Below, one piece after another: positions 25,434 to 44,574 of a DNA stretch of 64,000 nt (within the stretch, counting starts at the first letter, position 1; each line of letters begins with the position of its first letter). The position numbers and the translations under genes are program-made. Location: contig JAEEGU010000051.1 in NCBI GenBank assembly GCA_016280485.1, positions 82,166 through 146,165 of the forward strand, in the 5' to 3' direction. This DNA comes from Bacillota bacterium (GTDB lineage: Bacteria; Bacillota; Clostridia; Peptostreptococcales; Anaerovoracaceae). The notes under the pieces were generated by a model. That model ran no database searches and had not been told where the DNA came from. It saw only the letters and a program-made list of their open reading frames with translations.

Positions 25434-26324
25434 TTATTCTTTTTCTTTCCCGTCGGTCAGCGGAATCCCGTGCTCTATCGCATATTTGCCGGCCTTCGTC
25501 GCTTCGTTGGCCAGAAAAACCACATTCGGGCTGTCTTCAAACGCATCGTCGGCAATCACCTGGGTCTGGGCTCGAAGCTCAACGGTCGTCAGATTCGGGC
25601 AATCCGCAAAAGCCCCGGAATCAATTTGATAAGCGCTGGACAGCTTAACGGTTTCCAGCCCGGAGCCTCGGAACGCATCCTCTTCGATCAAAGGAAGGCT
25701 CGAAAGGAATGTCAAATTCTTCAGCGAACTGGTTCCAGCAAACCCCCGTTTCCCGACCTCGTGGATACCCCAGTTTCCGTTGATGACTGAAAGACTCTCG
25801 CAGCCTTCAAAGGCGCCTTCCCTGATGGTGGAAAGGTAGCCGGAATGTGTCACTTCCCGGAGGTTCCTGCAGTCGGCGAAGCAGTAATCCCCTATTGTTT
25901 TAACACCTCGCGGTATTACGACTGTCTCCATGTCTTTTCCACGGAATACTTCCGGCGCAATCTCCGTGATGTACAACTTATCGTATTTCTCTGGGATCAC
26001 CACGTCTTTTTCATTACCGTTGTACGACGTGATGATTACGTTTCCCCCAAATTCAAATACGGCGCCGAACCCGCCTCCTATGTCGACTTCTTCTCCCTCT
26101 TCTCCGGCGGCAATGTAGGAGGAAACCCTTTGATTGAATTCCTTTTGTTCCTGATGCCTCATTTCCTTGGCGGTCTCTTTTTCATTCTTCAAAATGATCA
26201 CGAGCAGCAGAAACACGATTCCAATTAAAATAATTGCGAAAATTGCCGCGCCGCGGCTGCCGATACTTTTTTGACCCTTATTACCCACGTATCTTTCCTC
26301 CGTCGTCAAGCCATTTCTGGCCAA
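25434..26324 (-). CDS. Membrane-anchored BspA-like (LRR_5) leucine-rich repeat protein
   Basis: N-terminal TM (AAIFAIILIGIVFLLLVII) then VVIPRGVKTIGDYCFADCRNLREV... repeats. Confidence 0.85.
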   Translation of the reverse strand: MARNGLTTEERYVGNKGQKSIGSRGAAIFAIILIGIVFLLLVIILKNEKETAKEMRHQEQKEFNQRVSSYIAAGEEGEEVDIGGGFGAVFEFGGNVIITSYNGNEKDVVIPEKYDKLYITEIAPEVFRGKDMETVVIPRGVKTIGDYCFADCRNLREVTHSGYLSTIREGAFEGCESLSVINGNWGIHEVGKRGFAGTSSLKNLTFLSSLPLIEEDAFRGSGLETVKLSSAYQIDSGAFADCPNLTTVELRAQTQVIADDAFEDSPNVVFLANEATKAGKYAIEHGIPLTDGKEKE

Positions 26325-26931
26325 AGGATTTGCTTATCAGTTCCAGCGTTTTACTCCTCTTTTCACTGTATGTCGTAACCGGCATTTCAAAGAGCGCGAG
26401 CTGATCGATCGACGGGAATTCCTCCTCCACTCGGGCCTGCTCCGCTTCCGCCTGGGTAATCACAGGGGGCTCCCCGCCGCAGAGATGATGCAGATTGATT
26501 CCGTCGTCCAGCAGATAGAAGCCAAGCAAAAAACGATGGCACTCGCGGAAATCATTTTGATACCCAAGCAGGCAGCTCCGGTAATCACGCTCGATGCCGG
26601 AACTGAGCTTTTTTGAGCAGGTCGTAAACGCCAGGGAGTGCCTGTATTTTTCAAGGTCAACATACCCTTTTGAGCAGAGGAACCTTCGATCGGTTACGTC
26701 CAAGGAAAACCCGTCCGTATAGTCCCGGTAGTGCAGGTTTGAAAGGTAGAAAAGCTCTCGAAGGGCGGTCTTCCCTGCCCTGGGCGTCGTCTCAATCTCT
26801 GCCTTATTTCGTACATCAATCACACACTGGATCCCGTAGGATTTCAGGACTGTAATCAGGTAACTGTAGTCCTGAAAGGCCTCAATTCCACAGGTGAAAA
26901 CGATCCCGTTCCCCGGCATTTCGCACGCCAC
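26281..26931 (-). CDS. DUF488 family protein
   Basis: CVIDVRNKAE ... CLLGYQNDFRECHRFLLGFYLLDDGINLHHL matches the DUF488 pattern; start could be GTG 26931 or ATG 26919. Confidence 0.7.
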   Translation of the reverse strand: MACEMPGNGIVFTCGIEAFQDYSYLITVLKSYGIQCVIDVRNKAEIETTPRAGKTALRELFYLSNLHYRDYTDGFSLDVTDRRFLCSKGYVDLEKYRHSLAFTTCSKKLSSGIERDYRSCLLGYQNDFRECHRFLLGFYLLDDGINLHHLCGGEPPVITQAEAEQARVEEEFPSIDQLALFEMPVTTYSEKRSKTLELISKSFGQKWLDDGGKIRG

Positions 26932-27004: not shown

Positions 27005-27102
27005 CTTTGCGAGGATCTGCGAAATGCACGTTCTTCCTGAATTCTCCGAAGAAAACCAAAATCGCTGCTTCTCGACCACGTCGAAAAACAGCGATTTCAG
27101 AG

Positions 27103-27131
27103 TTGACACCATGGGTAATTTTTAGTAGAAT
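27103..27131 (+). promoter_or_regulatory. Promoter of type I toxin mRNA
   Basis: TTGACA - 17 nt - TAGAAT. Confidence 0.65.
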
Positions 27132-27198
27132 AATGCCGAAGCCTCCCGGAGACGGAGGCGGCTCCCCTTTCTGACGTACAGGAAGGGAGGTGATCCGT

Positions 27199-27288
27199 AT
27201 GACGATTACGCTCTCTGAACTCTTTCAGCTCGGCACGCTTATCGTTGCGGTCATTACCTTGATCCATAACTGGAACAAGAAAAAGTAG
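27199..27288 (+). CDS. Holin-like small hydrophobic toxin of a type I toxin-antitoxin system (Hol_Tox/TxpA-BsrG type)
   Basis: MTITLSELFQLGTLIVAVITLIHNWNKKK; GGGAGGTGATCC SD; single TM + basic tail; convergent antisense RNA gene. Confidence 0.75.
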   Translation: MTITLSELFQLGTLIVAVITLIHNWNKKK

Positions 27289-27360
27289 CCGCCATCCACT
27301 CTCACACGGCAGCGGCTACTTATCGCAGATAGGGGTCGCCGCCTCTCGTTGGCTTCCTCT
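27277..27360 (-). ncRNA. Antisense antitoxin RNA 1
   Basis: Minus promoter 27367..27395 (TTGACA-17-TACAAT); AGTAGCCGC..GCGGCTACTTTTTC terminator overlapping the toxin 3' end. Confidence 0.65.
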
Positions 27361-27415
27361 GACCGTATTGTACACCGATTGACTCAGGTTGTCAATACTT
27401 CTCAGAGAAAATTCC

Positions 27416-27447
27416 GGGCCAGCCTTCGGGCTGGCCCAATTTTTTTC
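27416..27447 (+). terminator. Rho-independent terminator, copy 1
   Basis: GGGCCAGCCTTCGGGCTGGCCCAATTTTTTT. Confidence 0.75.
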
Positions 27448-27475
27448 GCTTATTACGGGTTATACATAGCTGGAA

Positions 27476-27557
27476 TAAAACGAAGTAGCCGCTCTCCCAG
27501 CCAAAGAGTGTCGGCTACTTCAACACACGAAGAACGCCGTCTTCTGAGGCTTCCTCT
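27476..27557 (-). ncRNA. Antisense antitoxin RNA 2 (orphan copy)
   Basis: Minus promoter 27564..27592 (TTGACA-17-CATAAT), AGTAGCCG...CGGCTACTTC hairpin; opposite only a remnant of the toxin 3' end. Confidence 0.6.
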
Positions 27558-27616
27558 GGTTGTATTATGCACCTTCCTTCAGAAGTTGTCAATATAAACC
27601 GGGAGAAAAAGTTTCT

Positions 27617-27648
27617 GGGCCAGCCTACGGGCTGGCCCAATTTTTTCG
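27617..27648. terminator. Rho-independent terminator, copy 2
   Basis: GGGCCAGCCTACGGGCTGGCCCAATTTTTT. Confidence 0.7.
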
Positions 27649-27664
27649 CTTATTACGTTTACTT

Positions 27665-29209
27665 TTATGCGTTTTCATTTGGGAAAACTATATCTGAGTC
27701 TTTGACATCTGATAGTATCTTCGGTTCTCCATTGTGGTTAATGCAAGTTATCGAACCACTTAACAGTAGCGTCCAATCCGGAGATATCTCTATTTCAGCA
27801 GTTTTATCAGGACTACATAGCCGCACTTTTCCGTCGGGGTACTTTATAATTTCAGTTGTTCCGTCAGGGCGTTCCAGCCGTATTTTGCCATCGGGGAACC
27901 TCACAATTTCATGTGTGCCATCTCGACGGCACAATGAAAAATTTCCGTCTGGTAGTATTATGAATTCAACAGAATTGTCCGGGCGGCTCATAATCAACTC
28001 TCCATCAGGAAGCCTAATAATTTCATCTGTTTCATCATCTCTGCTTAACACAACCTTTCCACTTGGGTTTATAACAATTATAGCAGATGCGCCAGGAACG
28101 CTCAACTCAACTTTACCATCGGGGTATTTCATTATTTCAGTTGTTCCGTCATGGCGTTTTAACTGAACTTTGCCATCTGGGTATTTATAAATCTCACTTC
28201 CGCCACGAAATTTCTCTTTTGTAATAATTCGCCCATCAACGTCGTAAATAACATAATTCCCCGTTTTATGATCCTCCATCCAATGTCCAGATATAATTAA
28301 GTCATTTAATTTTGCAACGCCGACGCCGTGCTTTAAGTCGGCCTTCCATTCTCCGTCATAACTACATTCTTCAATCAAATTACTATTCTTATTGTGACGT
28401 AGTATATATAAGCGTCCTTTTCCGTGTCGTTTTCCATTCTGAAAATCTCCATTATAAGATTCTTCTTCAATCACCCAACCGAGCTCGTCTTGCTCTTCTT
28501 CATGGCTCCATATCATAGTGCCGCGGCCGTGAGGCATACCGTTTTTCCATTCGCCGATGTAGGTTGTCCCATCTTCATAGACAACCGGTGCAGTAAGTTT
28601 CCCAATAAAATCTTTTAAAGCGTCTGGAGATTGATGAATGTCCCCTGTGCTCGACGATGTAACGTGTTTCAACACATCAAACATTATCTCTTTAAGTTCA
28701 TCAAGTTCTATCTTTCTGATTCCGGTATCTGTTCCTTCAAACGCTCCTGTCGGATTTCCATCCTTTTGAGTTTGATCTTTTAAAAGTTCCCCTCCTTCGT
28801 CGCACCGCCTCAAAGAAGGAATCGAATAAGAGCTTTTCCGGTCATTAACAAACAGTCTTTCATGCCGACAACCTTCTATCAAACTTAAATCGAATTTTTT
28901 GAGATTTTTAGTAAATACATCAGATATTGTTCTTTGAAACGCATTCTTATATGTTCTCCACATGCTTTTGTCGCCAGACAATCGTTCTGCAAGTTTCTTT
29001 TGTATCTCTTCGTAAGTCGCCTTTCCACCATTTTTTTCGAGAATCACGCTAAAAACTATCTTGGCAATTTCAGATTTTAGCACACAAATTTTTGAGTTTT
29101 CATCTAATTTGTTAAGCGGCTGTTCCGTAAATTGAATTCTGCCTGTATCTGTGTCTTCAAAAACATACAATCCATTTTTTGCATCAGTTATCTTGTAGCA
29201 TTTTGTCAA
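27665..29209 (-). CDS. MORN-repeat protein with C-terminal array of eight 19-aa repeats
   Basis: YIGEWKNGMPHGRGTM, YNGDFQNGKRHGKGRL, YDGEWKADLKHGVGVA (MORN), then (G/E/N)T.EI.(K/R)(Y/F/L)PDGK(V/I).L.RPD units. Confidence 0.85.
   Translation of the reverse strand: MTKCYKITDAKNGLYVFEDTDTGRIQFTEQPLNKLDENSKICVLKSEIAKIVFSVILEKNGGKATYEEIQKKLAERLSGDKSMWRTYKNAFQRTISDVFTKNLKKFDLSLIEGCRHERLFVNDRKSSYSIPSLRRCDEGGELLKDQTQKDGNPTGAFEGTDTGIRKIELDELKEIMFDVLKHVTSSSTGDIHQSPDALKDFIGKLTAPVVYEDGTTYIGEWKNGMPHGRGTMIWSHEEEQDELGWVIEEESYNGDFQNGKRHGKGRLYILRHNKNSNLIEECSYDGEWKADLKHGVGVAKLNDLIISGHWMEDHKTGNYVIYDVDGRIITKEKFRGGSEIYKYPDGKVQLKRHDGTTEIMKYPDGKVELSVPGASAIIVINPSGKVVLSRDDETDEIIRLPDGELIMSRPDNSVEFIILPDGNFSLCRRDGTHEIVRFPDGKIRLERPDGTTEIIKYPDGKVRLCSPDKTAEIEISPDWTLLLSGSITCINHNGEPKILSDVKDSDIVFPNENA
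27749..28204 (-). repeat. Tandem 57-bp (19-aa) repeat array, 8 copies
   Basis: GGSEIYKYPDGKVQLKRHD / GTTEIMKYPDGKVELSVPG / ASAIIVINPSGKVVLSRDD / ETDEIIRLPDGELIMSRPD / NSVEFIILPDGNFSLCRRD / GTHEIVRFPDGKIRLERPD / GTTEIIKYPDGKVRLCSPD / KTAEIEISPDWTLLLSGSI. Confidence 0.9.
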
Positions 29210-31485: not shown

Positions 31486-34400
31486 TCAATTTTTGTTCTT
31501 ATTAGCTGCGTAAAGGAAAGTAACAACTTGGGCTCGTGTACATGTGTCCTTAGGACTGAAAGTAGCTTCTGAAGTACCTGCAGTAATTCCGTTTTCAACT
31601 GCCCAAAGAACAGGCTTGTAGAAAAAGTCTTTCTCTTTTACGTCATTGAATGGATTCTCCGTTATTGTAGGCTCTGGTTTGCCTGCCGCCGCCCAGAGGA
31701 ATGTTACCACTTGGGAACGGCTGCACTCAACGCCAACCCCAAACAATGTCGTGTCAACGCCTGCGGTAATCCCATTTTCAACTGCCCAAAGAACAGGCTT
31801 ATAGTAATACTTCCCTTCCGTCACATCTGTAAATGGGTTTTCCGTAGTCGTAGGTTCAGGTCTTCCATTGGCTGCCCAAAGGAAAGTCACAACTTGCTCA
31901 CGGGTACATGTCAGATTCGGTCCGAAGTGCGTTGCATCGACGCCGGCTGTAATTCCGTTATTGACTGCCCAGAGTACGGGATTGAAGAACCAGTCTTTCT
32001 CTTTCACATCTTCAAATGGATTCTGGCTCGGATCCCATTTGCCGCATCGGACGCAAACTCCGTTTTGGTAATCGTGTCCAAGCGCCGGAATAGTGTCACC
32101 AACATACGTATCTCCGCAAATTGAGCAAGTGTACGTTGTGAACCCATCTTCCGTGCAGGTAGGTGCAGTTACTTCACCAGTGTAATCGTGTTCGTGGGAA
32201 AGATTTGCCCCTACGAAATGCACCATGTTGCGGTACAAGGTAACATCTTCGCTATCCTCGGTATAGATCCTTCCTGTTGCATAGCCGAGCTTGATTTCAT
32301 AGTTACCAGCCTCAATTTCTTCTCCGGATTTCAACGGGAGCGTGAACAGCAAGCCATCGGTTGTGCTCGGATAAGAGCTTAGCCAGGTTATTGCCCAGCC
32401 AGATTCCTCATACTGTGAGACTGTAAAACTACCATACTTTGTAGTTTCGCCTGGCGTGCAAATACGATCGCCGTCTTCGACGTCAATGTAGTAAATGCTC
32501 CTGTCGCATTCCAAAATCAAAGTAAAACCAATCATGCCTGGATTCCCTTGTATTTCAACTTCAATAGGAACGTCCATATCCGGCACAGTATCGACGATCT
32601 TCGTATCAAGCGGAAGAACAATTGGTGGGGCTTCTTCGGTTGGTGTGTCATCATGAACAAAGAATATGTTGACGACCTCACTATCGTTTTTGCCATCAGT
32701 GACCGCTATTGCGCTTACAAGGGTAGTATTGGTTAGGTGAATTGGATCAGAATAAACTGCACTGTCCTTTGTTGGCGTCGTTCCATCGGTTGTGTAATAA
32801 ATTGTTGACCCAATCTCCGACTCCAATTCGAGGTCAATTTCAATTCCGACTTCGAAGAAGCCGATGTTAGATATGGGAGCAGCAACCGTTTCCGCAAACA
32901 CTACAATCGGTCGTACTTCAAGATCAGAAGTAACATTCCACCACGTAACGTCTGTAGACCAGCCAAGAAACACTTTTCCTTCTACGACAAGCGGCTCGGG
33001 TAAAACAGCGGAATCACCGTATGCGACTTGCTGCTCTTGATAAACATTGCCATTTTCATCCAAGAATCGAACCGTAAAGAGCTGCCTATCATACACTGCA
33101 GACACAACCATATTATCTTGAACCGTGGTATTTCCTTCCAGGATCGCGTCCCAGCCAATGAATACACGACCTTCTGCCGTTGGTGTGTAGGGTGCTGTGA
33201 TTGTGTCACCATAGTAATATTTTTGGAATCCGATATTCTCATTAACCCAGTCTACAAAAGCAACGATATACTGCTCTTTTTCAAACTGGGCGAATATATC
33301 AACATTCTTAAAAATATCCGTGGTGCGCTCGCTCCAGCCAACGAAGCGGTATCCTTGTTTTTCTGGAACTGGAGGAACAACAGCGTTTTGACCTTCCAAA
33401 ACGGTCTGCGTAGAAATCACGCTGCCGTCATCCATTAGAAACCGAACGGTATACTCCGGTTTTGGCGCGTCGAGTACGTCGACATTCAGGAGACCGGTCG
33501 TGCCCTGGATACCCAGCGCAACTATATAGTTTCCACTCTCTACGGAAGGCTGATTGATCGGGATGAAGTTTACAACATAAGAGTTGCCTTCACCAAGCGT
33601 AATCTGCCCAACGTACTGCATCTGATACTGGTTCGGATCCATATTCTTGGACTGATAGACCATTATCGTTGCAACTTTCCCGCTGAGATCCTCGTCCGGG
33701 CAAACAGTTCCGGTAAATCGGTAATTCTGGCCGCTGGTGTCTTCTGTTCCTGCGCTTGTATCATAGATAGGCACTTCATCTCTGTAACGATACACCGTGC
33801 GTGTTTGAACATTGCGGGTTGAAGAGGGCGTTACTTCGGTGTCACTCCAGCTCGACCAGTCAGTCCAACGGTAGAAATAGTACGTCCATACTTGATTGCG
33901 AGTGCGATATCTATATGCCGTTCGGATTACCGGATAAGCCCCTCCTGCATCAATCGTGCCCGGTGCGGTATCGTTCGTGTTTCCTGTACTGAAATTCCAT
34001 CGTTGAGCATCGCCGAGAGATTCCGTCCAGCGCTTTGCGCTGGTATAAGAGTATGTATGCCAGTTACTGTCCTTATAGGCCGTCGGGAACCAACCTTCAT
34101 TCCAGTCAGAGCTGGAAAGAGTATACTGGTGACAATCGCTCAAGCCCTGGAACGGCTCGTGGCCTCCACAGACAGGGCAATAGAAATAGTAGTATCTCCA
34201 TTCCGTTCGTGACTCCACCTGAACAGAATCGCTGCTCGACTGCGAAGATGTACTCCAACTGCTCCAGTCGCCCCAGGGGCCCCAAGCCCAGGAAGAGTCG
34301 TACAAGGTCCATCCGTTCATGCTGCTATTGGAGCTTGTAGTGGTTTCCTTGTCCTGATACCGATACTGCGTCTTGCTTTCTATCGTTCGCCCTTCCTTTT

Positions 34401-37257
34401 CTTCAGGCGGCGTGGTTTCCCATTCGGACCAGTTTGTCCAGCTTGTACTGAACACAACGCTTTCCCAGTCGGCCTTCGAGAACGCGCTTCCCGTCGTCCC
34501 ATCAGATTTCCGTTCGAGGGCAAATACTTCAACTCTCTTTGCAATACCGTTGTAATGCAACTCGATAGTCTGATTTTTTGTTTCTCCCGCAGCCAAAGTT
34601 ACCTGGACTCGCTCAGCACAAACGGTCTTCACTACGTCATTGTTTCTCGCTTCGGTTTTCAATACGGCGATTAAATAGATATTGCTCGTGGAGGACGGCC
34701 AGTTTGTCAGTTTTGTGGTCACAGAATAAACGGAATCATCCCCGACCGGTGCAACGCTGGCCGATGTGATTTGGGTTAAAACCGGAAGCTCCGCATTTTC
34801 CCAGCGTATAACGGCCTGCAGCTTCAGATTCGCGTCGACGCAGGTATAATCGCAGGCGCTGTCTGTCTCTGAAGCTTCAATTACTGTCCAGCCGGAAAAA
34901 ACATATCCTTCTGGCACTCTTGGCGTATAATCAGGGGCAACGGCGCTTTGCTGATAGGGAACCTTTTGCGTCTCCCCTATTTTGATCCCATCAACGTCAT
35001 AGAAAATCACGTCGTACTCTATCGGAGTATATGTTGCTGTGTATGTGACGTCTTGAGTTACTGGAATTTCAAAATAATTGTTGCTTGGATACCATCCGCT
35101 GAAATAGTGGCCCTTATGAGAAGGTTGATTTTGTCTGGGAACGTAATCGCCATATGCAACAGTGTATTCTGCGAGTAATGATCCGTCGTCATCCAGGAAT
35201 GTGACTGTTGACGGATCCATCGCCATGACAGCAACTTTTGCGCTTTCGCCGCTGTCCCCCAACGGGCTCAACGCTTTCACCGAAACTTCGTATTTACCAG
35301 CTTCAGATAATACGTAACTGAACACATTCGATTCTTGATTGGCTAATTCGATTAGCGTTCCGTCTTTGTAGACGGAAACAGCATAATTCTCTGCACGGAT
35401 ATCATCGTTCCACCTAAACGACGCTGTTTTACCAACGGCTATCTTCTCCTCCGTCTCAAATCGCTGAACGGTAGGTGTATCCGGCTTTGCCGCTTGAATC
35501 GTGCAGCTTGTTGTTTCACTTTTACGCATTCCCCACTTTACCGCATACGCATAAATCGTGATATTGCGAGTCTCGTTAAAGGGCTCGTGGTATTCGCCTT
35601 CTATGGTTCCGTCAAAACGATAATAAATCTGAGCTCCAGGTGTAGACGTGATAGTGACCCTTGTTCCGCCGTACCACTGCTCTGTGTGGAATTCCGGCGC
35701 CTGAACCTGGTCCACATAAACAGTTCTTGAAATAGTGTTGTCGGAATATCCACTTTTAGAAGTAGTTATCGTAAAAGTAGTGGTCTTATCGATGAACTTA
35801 CGAACGGTTCCTGTACCGTTACCGGAAGAGTCATCGCTGCAGGTGTAGCTTATTGAGGCGCCTGGACAGCTCATGACTACATATTTGCCGCCTGCTGAAT
35901 CTTCCGTCGTAACGATAGCTGCGTCACACGGGTATGATTCAGTATAGAAGGTTCGCACATATGCTTCGGTGCCGCCGTTTCGATCTTTGGCCACGATTTT
36001 CAAAGTGTGCCTGCCCGGATTCAACGTATTAAATTTTACTTTATAGTCTATTGCCGGAGAAGATAGATCATAAGTTGTAGAATTTGTTGAAACCGTGGCA
36101 ACATTGTTTCCGTCAACATACGCAGAAACGGTGCTTAAAGGAATGGTTGACCGCACCATTCCATACAGAGTGTGCGACGCCTTAGGTATAGTCTGGCCTT
36201 CGTATGGCCAAGTGATTTCTATAGAAATATCTGATGGTTGTTGGTCAGGCTCAATCCATGCAGAATAAGCATATCCCTTACTCGAATTACTTCCATAAGA
36301 AATATAGTACCATTTGTTTCCAAAAGCATTGATATATGAGCCTAAAATAGTTATAGTTGTCCCCTTTTTCAATTTTTGAGCGACATGTTCATCTGCATCA
36401 TATGGCTTGTTTTTACGTGGATAGAACCCATCGGACTTAATTACTTTTCCCGTATTCGCACATGAAGTATCATATGTTGCTCTCCAATCATAAGTCAAAC
36501 CGCAAGACGTACACTTTCCAACTCCATTCCAGTTATGGGAATGAACATAGCTATTTGCTTGTTCCGAATCCAGTGTAATCCAATCTACTTTATTTTGTGG
36601 ATAATAGCAGGACGCGCTGCTTTGAGTCCAGTCGTTAGAGAAGCTCGTATCCATAAAGAAAGCGTCCGGTGGGATCGTGTTGCCGCCACCACTGTTTACA
36701 TACGGCTGGTTTGCTGCGGTATATCCACCGTTACACCATTCAGCCCATGTTCCGCGAATAACAAGAATGTGAGTGTGATAAGCGGAACCACCTGCCGTAC
36801 CTGGGCGGCATAATGGGGCTCCTTGGTTTATGGTTACATTTTTATCATAAGTTGATGCAAGGTTGTCATGCCCAAATACAACCGTCATATAATCAACAAT
36901 TCCATTTGCATACTGAACTGGATTGTTGCTTTGAAATACAACACAGCCCCAACTCCCGTATGTTTCTACGATTTTACCAGTAAAAGGCGCAGAAATAATT
37001 CTTCCGTAATCTATGCCGCCTGCTGATGTTAATGGGAGACAGTCGATTGCAATCTGATTTTGATGCGAATCTCCAGGAACAAGCCATTTTTGTGATACAT
37101 GAAAATCACCGCCAATTGGGAAAATGGCGAACTCGTTTCCATTTGAGTTTCTTATTGAAGTATTCATTGTACCAGATGCGTTAACACGAGGAATAACGCT
37201 CGGCAACAATGATGCGCATAGACAGAACGCAATAATTATAGACACTATCCGTTTCAT
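31486..37257 (-). CDS. Giant secreted SLH-domain protein with N-terminal M23-like peptidase, SH3b, InlB-type repeats and chitobiase-C-like/cohesin-like domains
   Basis: M23-like FHVSQKW..DSHQNQIAID...SAPFTGKIV...GHDN...YHTHILV; several FxDxxGxxIxxxxVxYGxxAxxPxxPxxxGYxFxGW repeats; three SLH repeats at C-terminus (FxDVKEKDWFFNPVLWAVNNGITAG...CTREQVVTFLWAA). Confidence 0.88.
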   Translation of the reverse strand: MKRIVSIIIAFCLCASLLPSVIPRVNASGTMNTSIRNSNGNEFAIFPIGGDFHVSQKWLVPGDSHQNQIAIDCLPLTSAGGIDYGRIISAPFTGKIVETYGSWGCVVFQSNNPVQYANGIVDYMTVVFGHDNLASTYDKNVTINQGAPLCRPGTAGGSAYHTHILVIRGTWAEWCNGGYTAANQPYVNSGGGNTIPPDAFFMDTSFSNDWTQSSASCYYPQNKVDWITLDSEQANSYVHSHNWNGVGKCTSCGLTYDWRATYDTSCANTGKVIKSDGFYPRKNKPYDADEHVAQKLKKGTTITILGSYINAFGNKWYYISYGSNSSKGYAYSAWIEPDQQPSDISIEITWPYEGQTIPKASHTLYGMVRSTIPLSTVSAYVDGNNVATVSTNSTTYDLSSPAIDYKVKFNTLNPGRHTLKIVAKDRNGGTEAYVRTFYTESYPCDAAIVTTEDSAGGKYVVMSCPGASISYTCSDDSSGNGTGTVRKFIDKTTTFTITTSKSGYSDNTISRTVYVDQVQAPEFHTEQWYGGTRVTITSTPGAQIYYRFDGTIEGEYHEPFNETRNITIYAYAVKWGMRKSETTSCTIQAAKPDTPTVQRFETEEKIAVGKTASFRWNDDIRAENYAVSVYKDGTLIELANQESNVFSYVLSEAGKYEVSVKALSPLGDSGESAKVAVMAMDPSTVTFLDDDGSLLAEYTVAYGDYVPRQNQPSHKGHYFSGWYPSNNYFEIPVTQDVTYTATYTPIEYDVIFYDVDGIKIGETQKVPYQQSAVAPDYTPRVPEGYVFSGWTVIEASETDSACDYTCVDANLKLQAVIRWENAELPVLTQITSASVAPVGDDSVYSVTTKLTNWPSSTSNIYLIAVLKTEARNNDVVKTVCAERVQVTLAAGETKNQTIELHYNGIAKRVEVFALERKSDGTTGSAFSKADWESVVFSTSWTNWSEWETTPPEEKEGRTIESKTQYRYQDKETTTSSNSSMNGWTLYDSSWAWGPWGDWSSWSTSSQSSSDSVQVESRTEWRYYYFYCPVCGGHEPFQGLSDCHQYTLSSSDWNEGWFPTAYKDSNWHTYSYTSAKRWTESLGDAQRWNFSTGNTNDTAPGTIDAGGAYPVIRTAYRYRTRNQVWTYYFYRWTDWSSWSDTEVTPSSTRNVQTRTVYRYRDEVPIYDTSAGTEDTSGQNYRFTGTVCPDEDLSGKVATIMVYQSKNMDPNQYQMQYVGQITLGEGNSYVVNFIPINQPSVESGNYIVALGIQGTTGLLNVDVLDAPKPEYTVRFLMDDGSVISTQTVLEGQNAVVPPVPEKQGYRFVGWSERTTDIFKNVDIFAQFEKEQYIVAFVDWVNENIGFQKYYYGDTITAPYTPTAEGRVFIGWDAILEGNTTVQDNMVVSAVYDRQLFTVRFLDENGNVYQEQQVAYGDSAVLPEPLVVEGKVFLGWSTDVTWWNVTSDLEVRPIVVFAETVAAPISNIGFFEVGIEIDLELESEIGSTIYYTTDGTTPTKDSAVYSDPIHLTNTTLVSAIAVTDGKNDSEVVNIFFVHDDTPTEEAPPIVLPLDTKIVDTVPDMDVPIEVEIQGNPGMIGFTLILECDRSIYYIDVEDGDRICTPGETTKYGSFTVSQYEESGWAITWLSSYPSTTDGLLFTLPLKSGEEIEAGNYEIKLGYATGRIYTEDSEDVTLYRNMVHFVGANLSHEHDYTGEVTAPTCTEDGFTTYTCSICGDTYVGDTIPALGHDYQNGVCVRCGKWDPSQNPFEDVKEKDWFFNPVLWAVNNGITAGVDATHFGPNLTCTREQVVTFLWAANGRPEPTTTENPFTDVTEGKYYYKPVLWAVENGITAGVDTTLFGVGVECSRSQVVTFLWAAAGKPEPTITENPFNDVKEKDFFYKPVLWAVENGITAGTSEATFSPKDTCTRAQVVTFLYAANKNKN

Positions 37258-37608: not shown

Positions 37609-40600
37609 TTATCTCAGATTTACGCCACGCTTCTTTTTGTGTTTCCTCGCAGCGACAATTAGTACGACGATTCCCGCACTTACAGCGATGATCCCAAACA
37701 ACGAACCAAAGAAGATCCAGGGATTTGCGTACCATCTTGTAAGCAGGTTCCGGGAAACCGTGATCTTGTCGGCAAACTCAAAAGCCGGCGCGTAGCCTTC
37801 TGCGTCACTGTCAATGACGTTTCCAGCCAGATCTACCACCACAACCCGAAGATGCTGACGGAGGCCTTCCTTGATAATCACTTCTTCGGAAGATTCCGTT
37901 TCGTTGTTCTCGAAGGTCTTGTTCAGAAGCTCCGCAGAGTTCCCGTCATGATCCGTAAGATAGACCGTAATGGCAGCCAGGCCAATGGCGTCATACACTT
38001 GGATATCAACCTTTTGGGAGCTCGCGTTGATAATGCTGTCCTCCATGCCCTTTATGAGCTGGATTTCCGGAGCCGTCGTGTCTACCCAGAAACGGATGTC
38101 CGGCGTCGCTTCGGTTCGGTTGTCTGCGCCGTCTTCGGAAGCGAATACCACCTTGTAGAGGCCGTCCTTGCCAAAGTTCTCGGGAGAAATGAGATACTTG
38201 TAATTGTACCACTTTTCTCCGTTTTCCCGCAGAGTTTCGTAGGTCCATGCGGGCTCAGCAAGCGGCGTACCGTCAACGGTGATCGTCATCGCTCTTTCAG
38301 AAACAGGACTTGGATTGTACTCCGTGATGAAGTATTCACCGTCCGCCACCATTACGTGCTGATCGAGAAGCGTCAGCAGATCCGGGCTGTACTCGAAGAC
38401 TGAGCCGTTACGGTTTACGGTGAAATCATACTTCCCTTCCGTGACGTGGCCTGCCTTATCCTGGAAAGAATATGTCAGGTGATAAATACCGTCCAGGTCT
38501 TTTTGTTTTGAGAAAGTCAGCTTGAGCTCCCCGTCCTGATCTCCGGAAACGATATCTTTGGTTACGTCAAGACCTGCCTGCTCCATGTTCGTAGCTTTGA
38601 GCTGAATATCGTACTTGTACATGTTGATATCCTGGAAGGTAATGACAGGCGCGAGATCGCCGTTGTAGGCGCAATGATTGTCAAGACCGTCCACGGTCAC
38701 AGAAACAGGCGTCGTGTCCACAGTGAAGCTCGTCGGGGCTGTTGCTGCGTGATAAGAGGTTCTGTCGGAGTGGTTGCCTGCACGGTCCGTACACTTGCAC
38801 TCAAGGGTGTAATCTCCCTCCTCAGAGAAGGTCACGGCTGCCTCGTGCTTGTCGCCCTCGTGCTTCCATGCGCTGAGTGTCGGGATCGCAATGTCAGCGC
38901 CGTCTTTTTGTGCCTTGATGTTCAGCTCTACCCTTCCCGGATCGAAGCAAGCGTCAGTGATAGTAATTGTTGCCGTGCGCTGGCCGTCAAAGAAGCACTC
39001 GTTAAACGCTGTGTTGTTGTCATAGCTCACTTCAACTGTAGGCTTGGTTTTGTCGATGATGAACTTTGACGTGGCAATGGAGGCATAGCTAAACCTGGTA
39101 TTGGCCAGCTTGCTGCCGGCGAGATCCTTCGCCTCGAACGACACGCCGTATTCGCCATCCTCACTAAAGGAGAAGGAAGCCTCGTATCTGGTATCGTCGC
39201 CGTTCTCCAGAACGCCAGCAGTCTTTACCCACTGCAGCGCGGCGGGATACGTTTCTCCGTTCCTGGTAACGATCAGCTTGTTGTCGCCAAGCGTTCTGTC
39301 AGTAATGATGATTTTGATCTTCCGGTTGGCGTCGAAGTAATAGCTGCCGCTGTCGTGGTTCGCCTTGTTGTTTTCATAAGAGATCTCCGCCACCGGAGCC
39401 GTTGTGTCGATTTTAACCGCACCGGACCGGGTTTCGGTTCTTCTTGTATTTCCGGCAACGTCGACGGCTGTAACCCGAACAATGATATTGTCCGAATTGT
39501 TCTCCGCCGCGAGGACGGTAATCCGGCCGTTCCAGTAATTGACCGCATTGTTGTTGCCCCGGGTCAGCTCGGTCTGCTTGATATTAACGCCGCTCTCCCC
39601 TACCCGGATCGTTTCATTTTGCGTCACGATGCCATCCCGGATGACCTCGTAGCTGATCGAGCGAAGGCCGGCGTAGGCTCCGTTCTTTTCCGGATCGATC
39701 ACCTTAACGTCAACCGTTCCGTTCCCGCTGAAATACCCGTTGGCATTTGCGCCAATTACGGAGAGTCCGATATCCGTGGAGTTAGGTCCGGAAGGCGCCG
39801 TTCTATCCAGGATCAGCCCGTCAGAATGGACAATCGTTGTGTTGCCTGCGTTATCTGTCACACGGAGGTAAATTACGCAGTTTTCGTCCGGGACGATCTG
39901 AAGGCCGTTTTGCGGCCAGGAAGTCCAGGTTCCGTTTGCGTTATATTGGGACATATCATAGACTTTTTGATAGCTCACAGAGAGCTGCCCGCTTACGTTG
40001 CAATTCGAGGAAGCCTGGACAGTGATCGACCGGCTGTAAATGTGCTTGTACTCGGCACTATTCTGGTTGCCGGCAAGAATGATTGTCCCGTCAACGGAGA
40101 GCCTGAGGTCGGTCGGGGCCGTGGTATCAACGCTGATGATCTGCGTGCTCTTGCCGCTGTAGTTTCCAGCTTCGTCAACCGTCCATACGACCAGCTCATA
40201 AACGCCGTCGCCGTGAATTACAGGCCGATTTACGCCATAGAGGAGATCTTCTCCTGCAGCACCAACGGCATGAAGATTGAACCAGGTCTTAATCTTTGCG
40301 TGGCCGGGGGCGGGAGTCGGCTCTGTAATGGCGATCCCGGGAATCGAGATATACCACTTGTTGATTCCCTGTGTCCCGGTGACTGTGACGACGGCATTTT
40401 GGGGAGGAGTCTTCTGTACCCGCACCGTCAGGTGGCTTGCGCGGCTTGCATTTTCCGCATAGGAAACTGCCCGGAAGTAGACGTCCACGTTGCTGTCGTT
40501 AGAGACCGTCACCTTGCCTCCAGGGGCCTCCTGCCAGGCGGTGTCATTACAGCTTGTGCCAGTCGATACGATTTGGAATTCATACCGCTTTACACCGGAA

Positions 40601-43600
40601 ATGGCTCCTTCCGCTTCTGCAGATACGGTTACGGATTGGTTCGTCCATACGCCTTCCACATAAACAGTGCCGTCCCCCGTCTTGGCTGACAAGGCCGGAG
40701 CTTCCGCACGCTCTTCATCGGTCTTCGGCGTGTTTTCCAGGACGATAATAAAGCTGTCGTCATTCTCCCTGTTGGTGGCATATTCAACGGCGTTTCCGCA
40801 GTTATCATAGGCTCTGACATGGAGATACCCGGCAAAATCGTCTGCTTTGACAATCGCTTTTGCAGATACCTTTCCGTCCTGCTCTACAAGGGTCATCTGG
40901 ATCCAGCCATTTTCCTGCGGGGCCTGATCCTTTTGGACGAACTGGTACTCGTAGTAAGCGACGCCGCTGGAAGGATCATCCGCATAGGCGTGGAATGTGA
41001 TGAAGTCACGGTACAGCAGGCCGTAATCGAACAGGTTCGTAAGGAAGGTAAAGAAGCCGCTGCCTTCGCCCTTGTCCATCTCCAGCACGAAATTTACGGG
41101 AGCCGAAACATCCACGCCAAATTCCATGAACGCCATATCGGACTTCCGGCCCACGTTGTCTTCCGCAACGATCAGGCAGATATCATGCCAATCCTTATCA
41201 TTCGGAATCGTAATCGTGAATTGTGTTTGACCGTCTGCAGCAAATACTTCATACCAGCTATCATCCTCAGATGAAGCGAAGCGATAAAGCATGGATCTGA
41301 TGCCGCTCTGCGAATCGCTCGTGGATACCGTGATTACAACGGAATTTGCAGTCCAGTCTGAATCCGGATTTTTCTGAACGCTTGTGATAACGGGCTTTTC
41401 CGTATCGATGTGGTCTACCGTGAAAGGCGTCAGGGACTCATTCCCAGCTTCGTCCACGGCCCGGACGGTATAGGCGCCGTTTTCCTGCGTGGAGAACGCA
41501 TAGCCCGTTCCCTGAACCGTGACGGGGTGCGCCGTGCCGTCTGCGTCCAAGACCTCCACAACAGCAATTGCGAATTCGTCCGTGACGGTGATCTGCACAT
41601 CGTTTTGCGCTGCGTCCCAGGTCTGCTGGGGCTGCACGGTCACAATGGGGGCGTTCCAGTCAATGTTGCTGACCACCACACTTACAGAGGTGGAGTTTCC
41701 GGCTTTGTCCGTGGCCTTCACCGTAACAGTCCCGTTGGACGTGGCAGCGAAAGCATATCGGTTTTCTTCATTGAGCGCCAAATCATGCTGCACGCCATCC
41801 GGAGACATCCAGCACACCGCGGCGATCTCGCCATTATCCGTCACAGAAAACGTATAGATTACCGCGTGAGTTCCGCCAACTGTAGAAGGAACGATTTCGG
41901 AAATGACCGGGTTTTCAATGTCAATCTTAAACCCTATTTCAGCCTGCTCGGATTTGCGGCCTACGTTGTCTTCAGCGACGATTTGACAGGAATCCGTATG
42001 ATTTTGGGCATTGGGGATCACAAAGGTAAATTCCGTCTGGCCTTCGGCTGCCTCGATCATGTTCCAGGAATCTTCGCCGGAGTCGGAAGCGAAGCGGTAA
42101 TACAGCGCCTTGATTCCGCTTTCGCCGTCGAACGTGTTTACGGTGATTGTAATGCTGCTCGCCGTCCACTCAGAGGCAGGCTCTTTATGAACCGCGGTAA
42201 TCACGGGGGCGTTTTGGTCGATGTAGGCTACGACAAAGGGCGCAAAAGCTTCGTTCCCTGCGTCGTCAACGGCCCGGACCCGGTAAGAGCCATTTTCCGT
42301 AGCGGTAAAAACGTAATCAGCTCCGTCGGCGACGACCTGATGTGCCGTCTCCATGGCGTCGATGACCTCCACAGTGGCCACGCCGAAATCGTCTGTAACA
42401 GAGATCCGAACCTCATTCGTTGTGGCGTCCCAGGTCTGCTGCGGCGCTACTGCAATCGTAGGAGGATTCCAGTCAATCTGATTGACAGTGGTATCAACGG
42501 ACGTGCTGTTGCCTGCCTTATCTGTCGCAGTCACGGTCAAAAGGCCATTTTCTGATACCGTTATGGCGTATAAGCCGTTCTCCGTGAGCTCCAGCACTTG
42601 CTGCTCACCTTCATTCAGGCTCCAGGCAATCGAGGCAAGCGCCCCGTTGTCCGTGGCGGTGAAGGTATAAGTAATCTCATGAGCGCCGGTATTCGTATTT
42701 GGGGTCAAAGAAGAAATCTGGGGTGCGTCTACGTCGATCTGGAAATAGATCTCAGTAACGTCGGAAAGTCTTCCAACATTGTCTTCGGCGATGATCTGGC
42801 AGTGGTCCATCAGGCTGCTTTCATTGGGAATCGTAAAACTAAAAACCGTTTGCCCTTCGTCAGCGTCAAGCTCCACCCAGGAACTATCTGAATCCGAAGC
42901 GAATCTGTAGCGAAGTCCCTTGATTCCGCTCTGCAGATCTTCCGTTGAAACCGTCACGACGATTGCTTCGGCGGTCCATTCCACGTCGGGATCCATTTGC
43001 GTATCGGTAATCACCGGGCTCTGCGTATCGATGTGATCGACAGTAAAAGGCACACTCGCTTCATTTCCGGCTACGTCAACGGCTCTTACAGAATATTGTC
43101 CATTGTGATTCGCCGTATAGCTGTATCGGCCGTCGGCGTTTTCAATTTTAGTTGCGGTTCCTTGGTCGTCAATAACCTCCACCACATAGATCGCCGAAGC
43201 GTCCGTGACGGCAATCTGGACGATATTGCTTTCAGCGTCCCAGGACTGCTGCGGCAGCACCGTAATCGCAGGTGGATCCCAGTCAATGTTCCCTGCAGTC
43301 GTGCTCACCGTTGTTGCATTCCCTGCGGCGTCTGTGACCTTTACGATCACTTCGCCATTTTCCGTCACGGAAAAGGAATAGTGATTGCTTTCATTTATCG
43401 CAAGCTCGTGTTCGCTTCCATCCTGGGCAATCCAAACGATAGACGCAATAACACCGTTATCTGTTGCTGTAAAGGAGTATTCGACCTCATGGGTTCCTTC
43501 TGATGTGGAAGGGGTTAATTCGGATACCACCGGGGCCGTATTGTCAATCTTGCTTACGGAGAATTCCGCGGAGCTCATATTGTTCGCTGCGTCAATCGCG

Positions 43601-44574
43601 TAAACGAAGATTGTGCCGTTTTCCGTAAGAAGAATTGCTCTATCCTGAACAGTTACGCCTTCGGAAATAACGTCCGCAGGATCATTCATGCTCTGTTCGG
43701 ACCAGTAAAGCCGAATCGCTGCTCCCGTAGAAATATTATCGTGTACGGTAATTGTGGCAATCTTACTCTGCGCCCAGTCCGTTTCGTTCGAAACTACGAT
43801 CCGGTCAATTTCGGGTGCGGTAATGTCCGCAGCGATTGCGACAATCGCCAGATCGCTCTGCGCTTCGACCGTGAACGACATGTTCGAATTGTTCATCGTC
43901 GGGCGTTCCCCGTTGCAGGTCACGGAGACCAGTTGACAACCGGCGGAGGCATGAATAGAAACCGTCAGCCGGTCTCCCTTCCGGATCAGAATTTCAGATC
44001 CGTTCGTGCAGAACCCTGACGTGGGTTCCTGTCCTTCAATGGAATAAGTGCCGGAGACGTTTGTGAACGACATCGTTGCCTTGAAGCGCATATAGGAAAT
44101 CCGGATGTTTCCGAGGTTCAAATCCCCTTCCAGGGTGATATCCGTAGCGTAGAGTGCGTAATCATCGCCGGCCGACACCGTGAGTTGAAGATCTCCGCCC
44201 GGTACTTCTTCAAGTTTGAAAAACCCTTCTCTGTCCGTGGATCCCTTTTTGATCCTTTCTCCGGTCACAGGATCGAAAAGCGTAACCGAGGCCTCGTTGA
44301 CAGGCTCTCCATCCTCATTTTTCACGACACCCTGAACAGAGTAATACTGAACGGGAGGCTCCACCGGATCCGTGACAATCGGCTCTTCTGGCTCCTCCGT
44401 GCCTGTCGGGTCCGGTTCCGTCGGATCACAGGATTCCGTTGATTTAACCGGTTCGGTGTCGGATGTATTCTTCTCCTGCTGATCACCTGACGCAGATACC
44501 ACAGTCCAACCCGGGTGAAGAATCATTACGATCAGCAGCACGACAAGAATTGCCGACATCAATCTATTATTCAT
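37609..44574 (-). CDS. Giant membrane-anchored Ig-like repeat surface protein
   Basis: Signal peptide, TEP linker, carboxypeptidase-regulatory-like domain (YSVQGVVKNEDGEPVNEASVTLFDPVTGERIKKGSTDREGFFKL), at least 3 ~250-aa repeats, C-terminal TM (IFFGSLFGIIAVSAGIVVLIVAARKHKKK). Confidence 0.88.
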   Translation of the reverse strand: MNNRLMSAILVVLLIVMILHPGWTVVSASGDQQEKNTSDTEPVKSTESCDPTEPDPTGTEEPEEPIVTDPVEPPVQYYSVQGVVKNEDGEPVNEASVTLFDPVTGERIKKGSTDREGFFKLEEVPGGDLQLTVSAGDDYALYATDITLEGDLNLGNIRISYMRFKATMSFTNVSGTYSIEGQEPTSGFCTNGSEILIRKGDRLTVSIHASAGCQLVSVTCNGERPTMNNSNMSFTVEAQSDLAIVAIAADITAPEIDRIVVSNETDWAQSKIATITVHDNISTGAAIRLYWSEQSMNDPADVISEGVTVQDRAILLTENGTIFVYAIDAANNMSSAEFSVSKIDNTAPVVSELTPSTSEGTHEVEYSFTATDNGVIASIVWIAQDGSEHELAINESNHYSFSVTENGEVIVKVTDAAGNATTVSTTAGNIDWDPPAITVLPQQSWDAESNIVQIAVTDASAIYVVEVIDDQGTATKIENADGRYSYTANHNGQYSVRAVDVAGNEASVPFTVDHIDTQSPVITDTQMDPDVEWTAEAIVVTVSTEDLQSGIKGLRYRFASDSDSSWVELDADEGQTVFSFTIPNESSLMDHCQIIAEDNVGRLSDVTEIYFQIDVDAPQISSLTPNTNTGAHEITYTFTATDNGALASIAWSLNEGEQQVLELTENGLYAITVSENGLLTVTATDKAGNSTSVDTTVNQIDWNPPTIAVAPQQTWDATTNEVRISVTDDFGVATVEVIDAMETAHQVVADGADYVFTATENGSYRVRAVDDAGNEAFAPFVVAYIDQNAPVITAVHKEPASEWTASSITITVNTFDGESGIKALYYRFASDSGEDSWNMIEAAEGQTEFTFVIPNAQNHTDSCQIVAEDNVGRKSEQAEIGFKIDIENPVISEIVPSTVGGTHAVIYTFSVTDNGEIAAVCWMSPDGVQHDLALNEENRYAFAATSNGTVTVKATDKAGNSTSVSVVVSNIDWNAPIVTVQPQQTWDAAQNDVQITVTDEFAIAVVEVLDADGTAHPVTVQGTGYAFSTQENGAYTVRAVDEAGNESLTPFTVDHIDTEKPVITSVQKNPDSDWTANSVVITVSTSDSQSGIRSMLYRFASSEDDSWYEVFAADGQTQFTITIPNDKDWHDICLIVAEDNVGRKSDMAFMEFGVDVSAPVNFVLEMDKGEGSGFFTFLTNLFDYGLLYRDFITFHAYADDPSSGVAYYEYQFVQKDQAPQENGWIQMTLVEQDGKVSAKAIVKADDFAGYLHVRAYDNCGNAVEYATNRENDDSFIIVLENTPKTDEERAEAPALSAKTGDGTVYVEGVWTNQSVTVSAEAEGAISGVKRYEFQIVSTGTSCNDTAWQEAPGGKVTVSNDSNVDVYFRAVSYAENASRASHLTVRVQKTPPQNAVVTVTGTQGINKWYISIPGIAITEPTPAPGHAKIKTWFNLHAVGAAGEDLLYGVNRPVIHGDGVYELVVWTVDEAGNYSGKSTQIISVDTTAPTDLRLSVDGTIILAGNQNSAEYKHIYSRSITVQASSNCNVSGQLSVSYQKVYDMSQYNANGTWTSWPQNGLQIVPDENCVIYLRVTDNAGNTTIVHSDGLILDRTAPSGPNSTDIGLSVIGANANGYFSGNGTVDVKVIDPEKNGAYAGLRSISYEVIRDGIVTQNETIRVGESGVNIKQTELTRGNNNAVNYWNGRITVLAAENNSDNIIVRVTAVDVAGNTRRTETRSGAVKIDTTAPVAEISYENNKANHDSGSYYFDANRKIKIIITDRTLGDNKLIVTRNGETYPAALQWVKTAGVLENGDDTRYEASFSFSEDGEYGVSFEAKDLAGSKLANTRFSYASIATSKFIIDKTKPTVEVSYDNNTAFNECFFDGQRTATITITDACFDPGRVELNIKAQKDGADIAIPTLSAWKHEGDKHEAAVTFSEEGDYTLECKCTDRAGNHSDRTSYHAATAPTSFTVDTTPVSVTVDGLDNHCAYNGDLAPVITFQDINMYKYDIQLKATNMEQAGLDVTKDIVSGDQDGELKLTFSKQKDLDGIYHLTYSFQDKAGHVTEGKYDFTVNRNGSVFEYSPDLLTLLDQHVMVADGEYFITEYNPSPVSERAMTITVDGTPLAEPAWTYETLRENGEKWYNYKYLISPENFGKDGLYKVVFASEDGADNRTEATPDIRFWVDTTAPEIQLIKGMEDSIINASSQKVDIQVYDAIGLAAITVYLTDHDGNSAELLNKTFENNETESSEEVIIKEGLRQHLRVVVVDLAGNVIDSDAEGYAPAFEFADKITVSRNLLTRWYANPWIFFGSLFGIIAVSAGIVVLIVAARKHKKKRGVNLR

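Follow-up and report, generated by a model that had tools for sequence, protein, structure and literature searches.

At positions 27103-27657 of the window (i.e., the whole 64,000-nucleotide stretch of Bacillota DNA analyzed here), our data point to a type I toxin-antitoxin module followed by a tandemly duplicated and since diverged gene for the antitoxin only, whose most likely role is that of a spare antitoxin. We hold this explanation as a whole with moderate confidence. The initial annotation had proposed a type I locus with an antitoxin-only duplicate, and at the level of sequence that proposal is well supported, as a covariance model built without knowledge of the window finds both antisense RNAs and the layout recurs in other genomes.

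The toxin gene and its convergent antisense RNA

We found every element ascribed to the first unit by the initial annotation at the position given for it (i.e., a toxin promoter, a Shine-Dalgarno (SD) sequence, a 29-aa open reading frame, a convergent antisense promoter, and a hairpin). The toxin promoter (27103..27131, plus strand; TTGACA-17-TAGAAT) agrees with the consensus at 11 of 12 positions, and its -10 box places the start of the toxin mRNA at approximately 27138. A leader (27138..27199) precedes the open reading frame MTITLSELFQLGTLIVAVITLIHNWNKKK (27200..27289, plus strand), which encodes a short, hydrophobic, holin-like peptide of 29 aa with a start codon and the SD GGGAGG. The same arrangement is found in the sister loci, with whose toxins the window peptide shares 18-59% identity. 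In size, in its single hydrophobic stretch, and in its lysine-rich end the peptide resembles Hol_Tox (PF16935), ComI, and PepG1 (sprG1), but it remains below the cut-offs of both Hol_Tox (E 5.7e-4, 20.1 bits, gathering cut-off 23.3) and NCBIfam ComI (NF052249; E 2.4e-6, 27.2 bits, curated cut-off 55). Three sister-locus toxins (L086, L061, and L010/L106) pass the Hol_Tox cut-off, one sister-locus toxin matches PepG1 at 1e-8, and all relatives stay below the cut-off for PepG1. Genome matches to the ComI model were mostly weak. The toxin mRNA likely ends at an intrinsic terminator (GGGCCAGCC..GGCTGGCCC followed by a T-run; terminator 1, 27416..27446, plus strand).

The SD lies inside a local hairpin in the predicted fold of the leader. 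Furthermore, a motif at the 5' end of the leader (A) is complementary to a region near the 3' end of the mRNA (A'). The duplex of the leader with A' of the first unit (A'1) has a calculated energy of -41.8 kcal/mol (p 0.003 compared to shuffles), whereas the corresponding region of the second copy (A'2) reaches only -29.6 kcal/mol (p 0.05). Among 99 intact loci, drawn from L064-L147 and L182-L219, complementarity of leader and A' over a long stretch was found in 95 (p <= 0.02 compared to shuffles), with a median of -45 versus -24 kcal/mol. These calculated energies suggest that closure of the toxin mRNA between its 5' and 3' parts (leader with A'; 27138-27362 in the window) is conserved across the group.

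Convergent with the toxin gene, a minus-strand promoter (27395-27367; TTGACA-17-TACAAT, 11/12) precedes a predicted antitoxin RNA of approximately 85 nt, referred to here as as1 (approximately 27360-27276), that overlaps the toxin mRNA and comprises a 5' domain and its own terminator hairpin (27283-27321). The locus contains five promoter-like sites, while 0.8 would be expected from shuffles. In the mechanism that we propose, the toxin mRNA would start near 27138 with its SD masked by the local leader hairpin, and the leader could also pair with the A' region of the same mRNA. The antitoxin as1, transcribed head-on from approximately 27360 and perfectly complementary to part of the 3' half of the mRNA, would block translation or bring RNase III, by analogy with BsrG/SR4 and TxpA/RatA. 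We regard either outcome as the likely action of as1 since complementarity to the 3' part of the mRNA matches the arrangement of these two systems, and since our covariance model recognizes plasmid loci that have been assigned to BsrG.

Directly upstream of the toxin promoter lies a hairpin with a 20-bp stem (27056-27100), which has the look of a minus-strand terminator and would shield the neighboring DUF488 gene (26281-26931). A perfect sigma-70 consensus promoter (27004-26976, minus strand; 12/12) stands before that gene. The DUF488 gene is absent from both same-genus genomes, and because of this there is no empty site to compare. On its other side the locus adjoins a minus-strand gene (27665-29209) for a MORN-repeat protein (Tcp10_C match) in which PDGKV-type repeats form a long run. 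Two very large open reading frames also lie on the minus strand (31486-37257 and 37609-44574; 1923 and 2321 aa, respectively), and the 1923-aa frame has a signal-peptide-like start and end repeats that are S-layer-domain-like in appearance.

A tandem repeat and its antitoxin-only copy

As had been claimed, the antisense promoter, the terminator, and the 3' end of the toxin gene are repeated approximately 200 bp downstream. Positions 27245-27455 align with 27444-27657 at a score of 179, compared to 42 +/- 6 (maximum 62) for mononucleotide shuffles, and 160 of the 190 aligned bases are identical. The repeat starts within the toxin gene, spans the antisense gene and the GGGCCAGCC terminator, and extends to CGCTTATTACG. 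The toxin promoter, leader, SD, and start codon are absent from the second copy, which bears out in sequence what the initial annotation had said of promoter, SD, and start. A terminator block is indeed present at both units, terminator 2 (27616..27646, plus strand) being a copy of terminator 1. However, it does not form one block around both units, as had been supposed, but belongs to the tandem duplication, because the repeat itself includes the GGGCCAGCC..GGCTGGCCC-T terminator and CGCTTATTACG. Outside the window, 34 kb off on the same contig, a third copy of this terminator and its flanking sequence (95% over 44 bp; L003:1501-1544, contig positions 75060-75103) sits after an unrelated lipoprotein-like gene; since it follows an unrelated gene, the GGGCCAGCC..GGCTGGCCC terminator is not specific to toxin-antitoxin loci.

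At the duplication junction (27447..27490, plus strand) CGCTTATTAC stands against CGGTCATTAC of the toxin gene. The toxin remnant found here ends in VIHSWNKTK*, and its frame is shifted by 1 nt with respect to the leading ATTAC. This comparison suggests that the duplication occurred via ATTAC microhomology. Such an event would have copied the complete antitoxin gene and the terminator along with the toxin 3' end, and would have left behind the toxin promoter, leader, SD, and start. The last codons of the toxin may be present in the extra copy because they overlap the terminator of the antitoxin. The product would be an antitoxin-only gene that is still transcribable, a spare antitoxin that was presumably redundant at birth and has since diverged.

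The second antisense gene has its own promoter (27592-27564, minus strand; TTGACA-17-CATAAT, 11/12) and a predicted RNA, as2 (approximately 27557-27476), with a hairpin at 27481-27521. For the hairpins of as1 and as2, none of 200 dinucleotide shuffles folds as well (z -5.0 and -5.3, respectively), and the whole as2 RNA has a z of -3.35. Our covariance model, R1, was built with the window excluded, on 40 antitoxin RNAs taken from other loci, and in its alignment 8 of 11 stem pairs show change on both sides. R1 matches as1 with 34.8 bits (E 5.3e-8) and as2 with 24.5 bits (E 3.4e-5), each over model positions 1-87 of 87; part of the conserved antitoxin 5' domain is missing from as2. Judged by this model, as2 is a genuine member of the R1 group of predicted antitoxin RNAs. 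An Rfam search at gathering thresholds left the antitoxin unmatched in the window and in the Clostridia loci tried, and two candidates for the window, HIV_FE and ctRNA_pT181 (E 0.2-0.9), scored far below their gathering thresholds and were dismissed.

Recurrence in related bacteria and comparison with known systems

R1 has matches in 123 of 298 genomes of the window's family. The antitoxin 5' motif GCTGCCNNTAGACGGTTNNCCC retrieves at least dozens of loci from Lachnospiraceae, Oscillospiraceae, and other groups that share one anatomy. Their peptide ends in KKK* or a similar stretch, the stop codon is covered by a hairpin, and a sigma-70-type promoter lies convergent to the toxin gene. A few matches to the motif (e.g., in Streptomyces and Pseudomonas) were set aside since this anatomy was absent. 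By the anatomy of these loci, the parent type I locus is of a kind that is widespread in Clostridia. Members of the R1 group also occur on viral contigs, and one genome of the window's family (G116) has a locus in common with a Mogibacterium record, from which we take this family to be probably the one to which Mogibacterium belongs. A whole-locus DNA search of 60 relatives found no copy, and neither did a distant search of phage records; a permissive pattern for the antitoxin 5' domain of the window, applied to viral sequences, was too unspecific and was left out of the results.

The initial annotation had suggested that relatives be searched for one toxin with two antitoxins, and we found this layout in L122 (uncultured Firmicutes), L078 (Oscillibacter), and L213 (genome G214). 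In each of these, one intact toxin with its antitoxin precedes a further antitoxin, which starts within a 3' stub of a toxin gene. L212 (G005) probably has the same layout, with the toxin cut by the contig edge. Furthermore, L106 has a lone antitoxin approximately 1 kb from a full locus, and L217, from the window's own genus, is a lone antitoxin whose toxin stub is longer. As read from these sequences, antitoxin-only second copies beside a toxin-antitoxin pair arose repeatedly in related bacteria. Loci in which the whole pair is duplicated (L214, L215, L131, L136, and L051) were excluded from the antitoxin-only count. In L216 (G146), two tandem antitoxins each follow a toxin gene that apparently misses an internal stretch of its open reading frame, such that the antitoxin is kept and the toxin is broken.

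A survey of 144 R1 matches detected an intact toxin in 101. With duplicates removed, 37 of 130 antitoxins, one of them in the window's genus, were toxin-less, an upper estimate in a sample chosen by antitoxin sequence since a few intact toxins (e.g., L014) probably escaped detection. Promoters matching at 9 or more of 12 positions were found at 29 of the 37 toxin-less and 84 of the 93 toxin-bearing antitoxins, compared to 1 of 124 control stretches. Since promoters were outside the selection criteria, they provide an independent indication that transcription of toxin-less copies is possible. Overall, promoters are somewhat weaker at toxin-less loci (Mann-Whitney p 0.01).

Two type I systems of Bacillus subtilis, BsrG/SR4 and TxpA/RatA, resemble the window locus in their small membrane toxin. 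In both systems the antitoxin and the 3' part of the toxin mRNA are complementary, and the SD of bsrG is masked by structure (PMC6562991); sequence and predicted structure place the same arrangement in the window. R1 also picks up Bacillus plasmid loci classed as BsrG by Rfam, on their antisense side (E ~1e-5). In the reverse direction, the Rfam BsrG model (RF01412) matches these plasmid loci and gave no match to the window up to E 5. The Bacillus systems differ in their complementarity, reported as 100-140 bp (PMC6562991) compared to approximately 85 bp in the window, and the window has in addition the second, antitoxin-only copy. In Fst/par of pAD1, the toxin and antitoxin RNAs likewise converge around a hairpin close to the stop codon. 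However, Fst uses the DNA direct repeats DRa/DRb (PMC7472228), whereas in the window, as in 95 of 99 loci, the leader and the antitoxin 5' domain are repeats in inverted orientation. The plus-strand hairpin of the window is without a T-run.

The layout itself has a counterpart in zor/orz of E. coli, in which approximately 30% of genomes are antitoxin-only, six genomes carry a full locus with an extra antitoxin, and expression of the orphan antitoxin OrzPmg was confirmed by northern blot (PMC11264685). Like the locus described here, zor/orz has a 29-aa toxin and occurs as one intact locus plus a toxin-less antitoxin ("1.5 copies"). It belongs to another bacterial phylum and involves another RNA, and its antitoxin-only loci keep a piece of the toxin leader, while unit 2 of the window keeps the toxin 3' end. 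Since this layout was already reported, we consider the present locus a variant in another bacterial group and not a new kind.

Selection, decay, and the role of as2

Since loss of a toxin is harmless, neutral decay would also be expected to produce toxin-less copies, and there is a substantial, if lesser, chance that unit 2 is a relic (i.e., a neutral tandem duplication now decaying, in which promoter and hairpin are still present). In every case compared (the window, L078, L122, L213, L212, and L106), the R1 score of the toxin-less copy is below that of its toxin-bearing partner, as expected from relaxed constraint. The extra copy in L078 has lost its -35 box, the extra hairpin in L213 looks eroded by eye, and the weaker promoters at toxin-less loci fit the same reading. 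However, the promoter hexamers and lower stem are identical at 28 of 30 positions between the window copies despite an identity of 58% outside these functional sites (84 of 144; Fisher p 1e-4), and the as2 hairpin folds as stably as that of as1. If only as1 were constrained, approximately 6 changes in the 30 positions would be expected; we found 2, both in the -10 box (p ~0.03, for sites chosen post hoc). This pattern of identity suggests selection on both antitoxin copies of the window.

The initial annotation had proposed that as2 may raise the antitoxin dose or neutralize related toxins, roles which the pairing calculations favor weakly. The predicted duplex of as2 with the window toxin mRNA (-78 kcal/mol) exceeds those of shuffles (mean -56, best -68 kcal/mol) and is equalled by only 1 of 88 non-cognate family antitoxins, such that action in trans on this mRNA is possible. 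A present contribution to antitoxin dose by this route nevertheless seems to us rather unlikely: cognate as1 reaches -189 kcal/mol, nested cofolding of as2 with the toxin mRNA brought no gain over shuffles, and the longest perfect match of as2 to the toxin mRNA (approximately 11 nt, from the copy alignment) is below the 15 nt of complementarity reported to be sufficient for Orz (PMC11264685). It would be more surprising if antitoxin-only copies, repeatedly born by duplication of the toxin 3' end, were kept by selection for a role away from their neighbor, for instance in immunity against incoming toxins or in the control of another mRNA. Least probable is that as2 itself serves as an immunity (anti-addiction) RNA to counter related toxins carried in by mobile elements. 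Family members on viral contigs and the frequency of toxin-less antitoxins would fit that role, but as2 pairs better than as1 with only 19 of 94 foreign toxin mRNAs and worse with most, and the assembled genome (78% complete) is without another strong R1 locus. A partner toxin for as2 elsewhere in the genome was considered and is unsupported, its three R1 matches being as1, as2, and a weaker sense-strand echo.

The reading of unit 2 as a duplicated spare antitoxin places the locus within a group that bears on why cells keep antitoxins without toxins. The R1 group offers natural cases side by side: toxin with antitoxin, antitoxin-only tandem, and lone antitoxin. Since the cases are many and the RNA, unmatched in Rfam, can be aligned, both selection on solo antitoxins and cross-talk between loci are testable.
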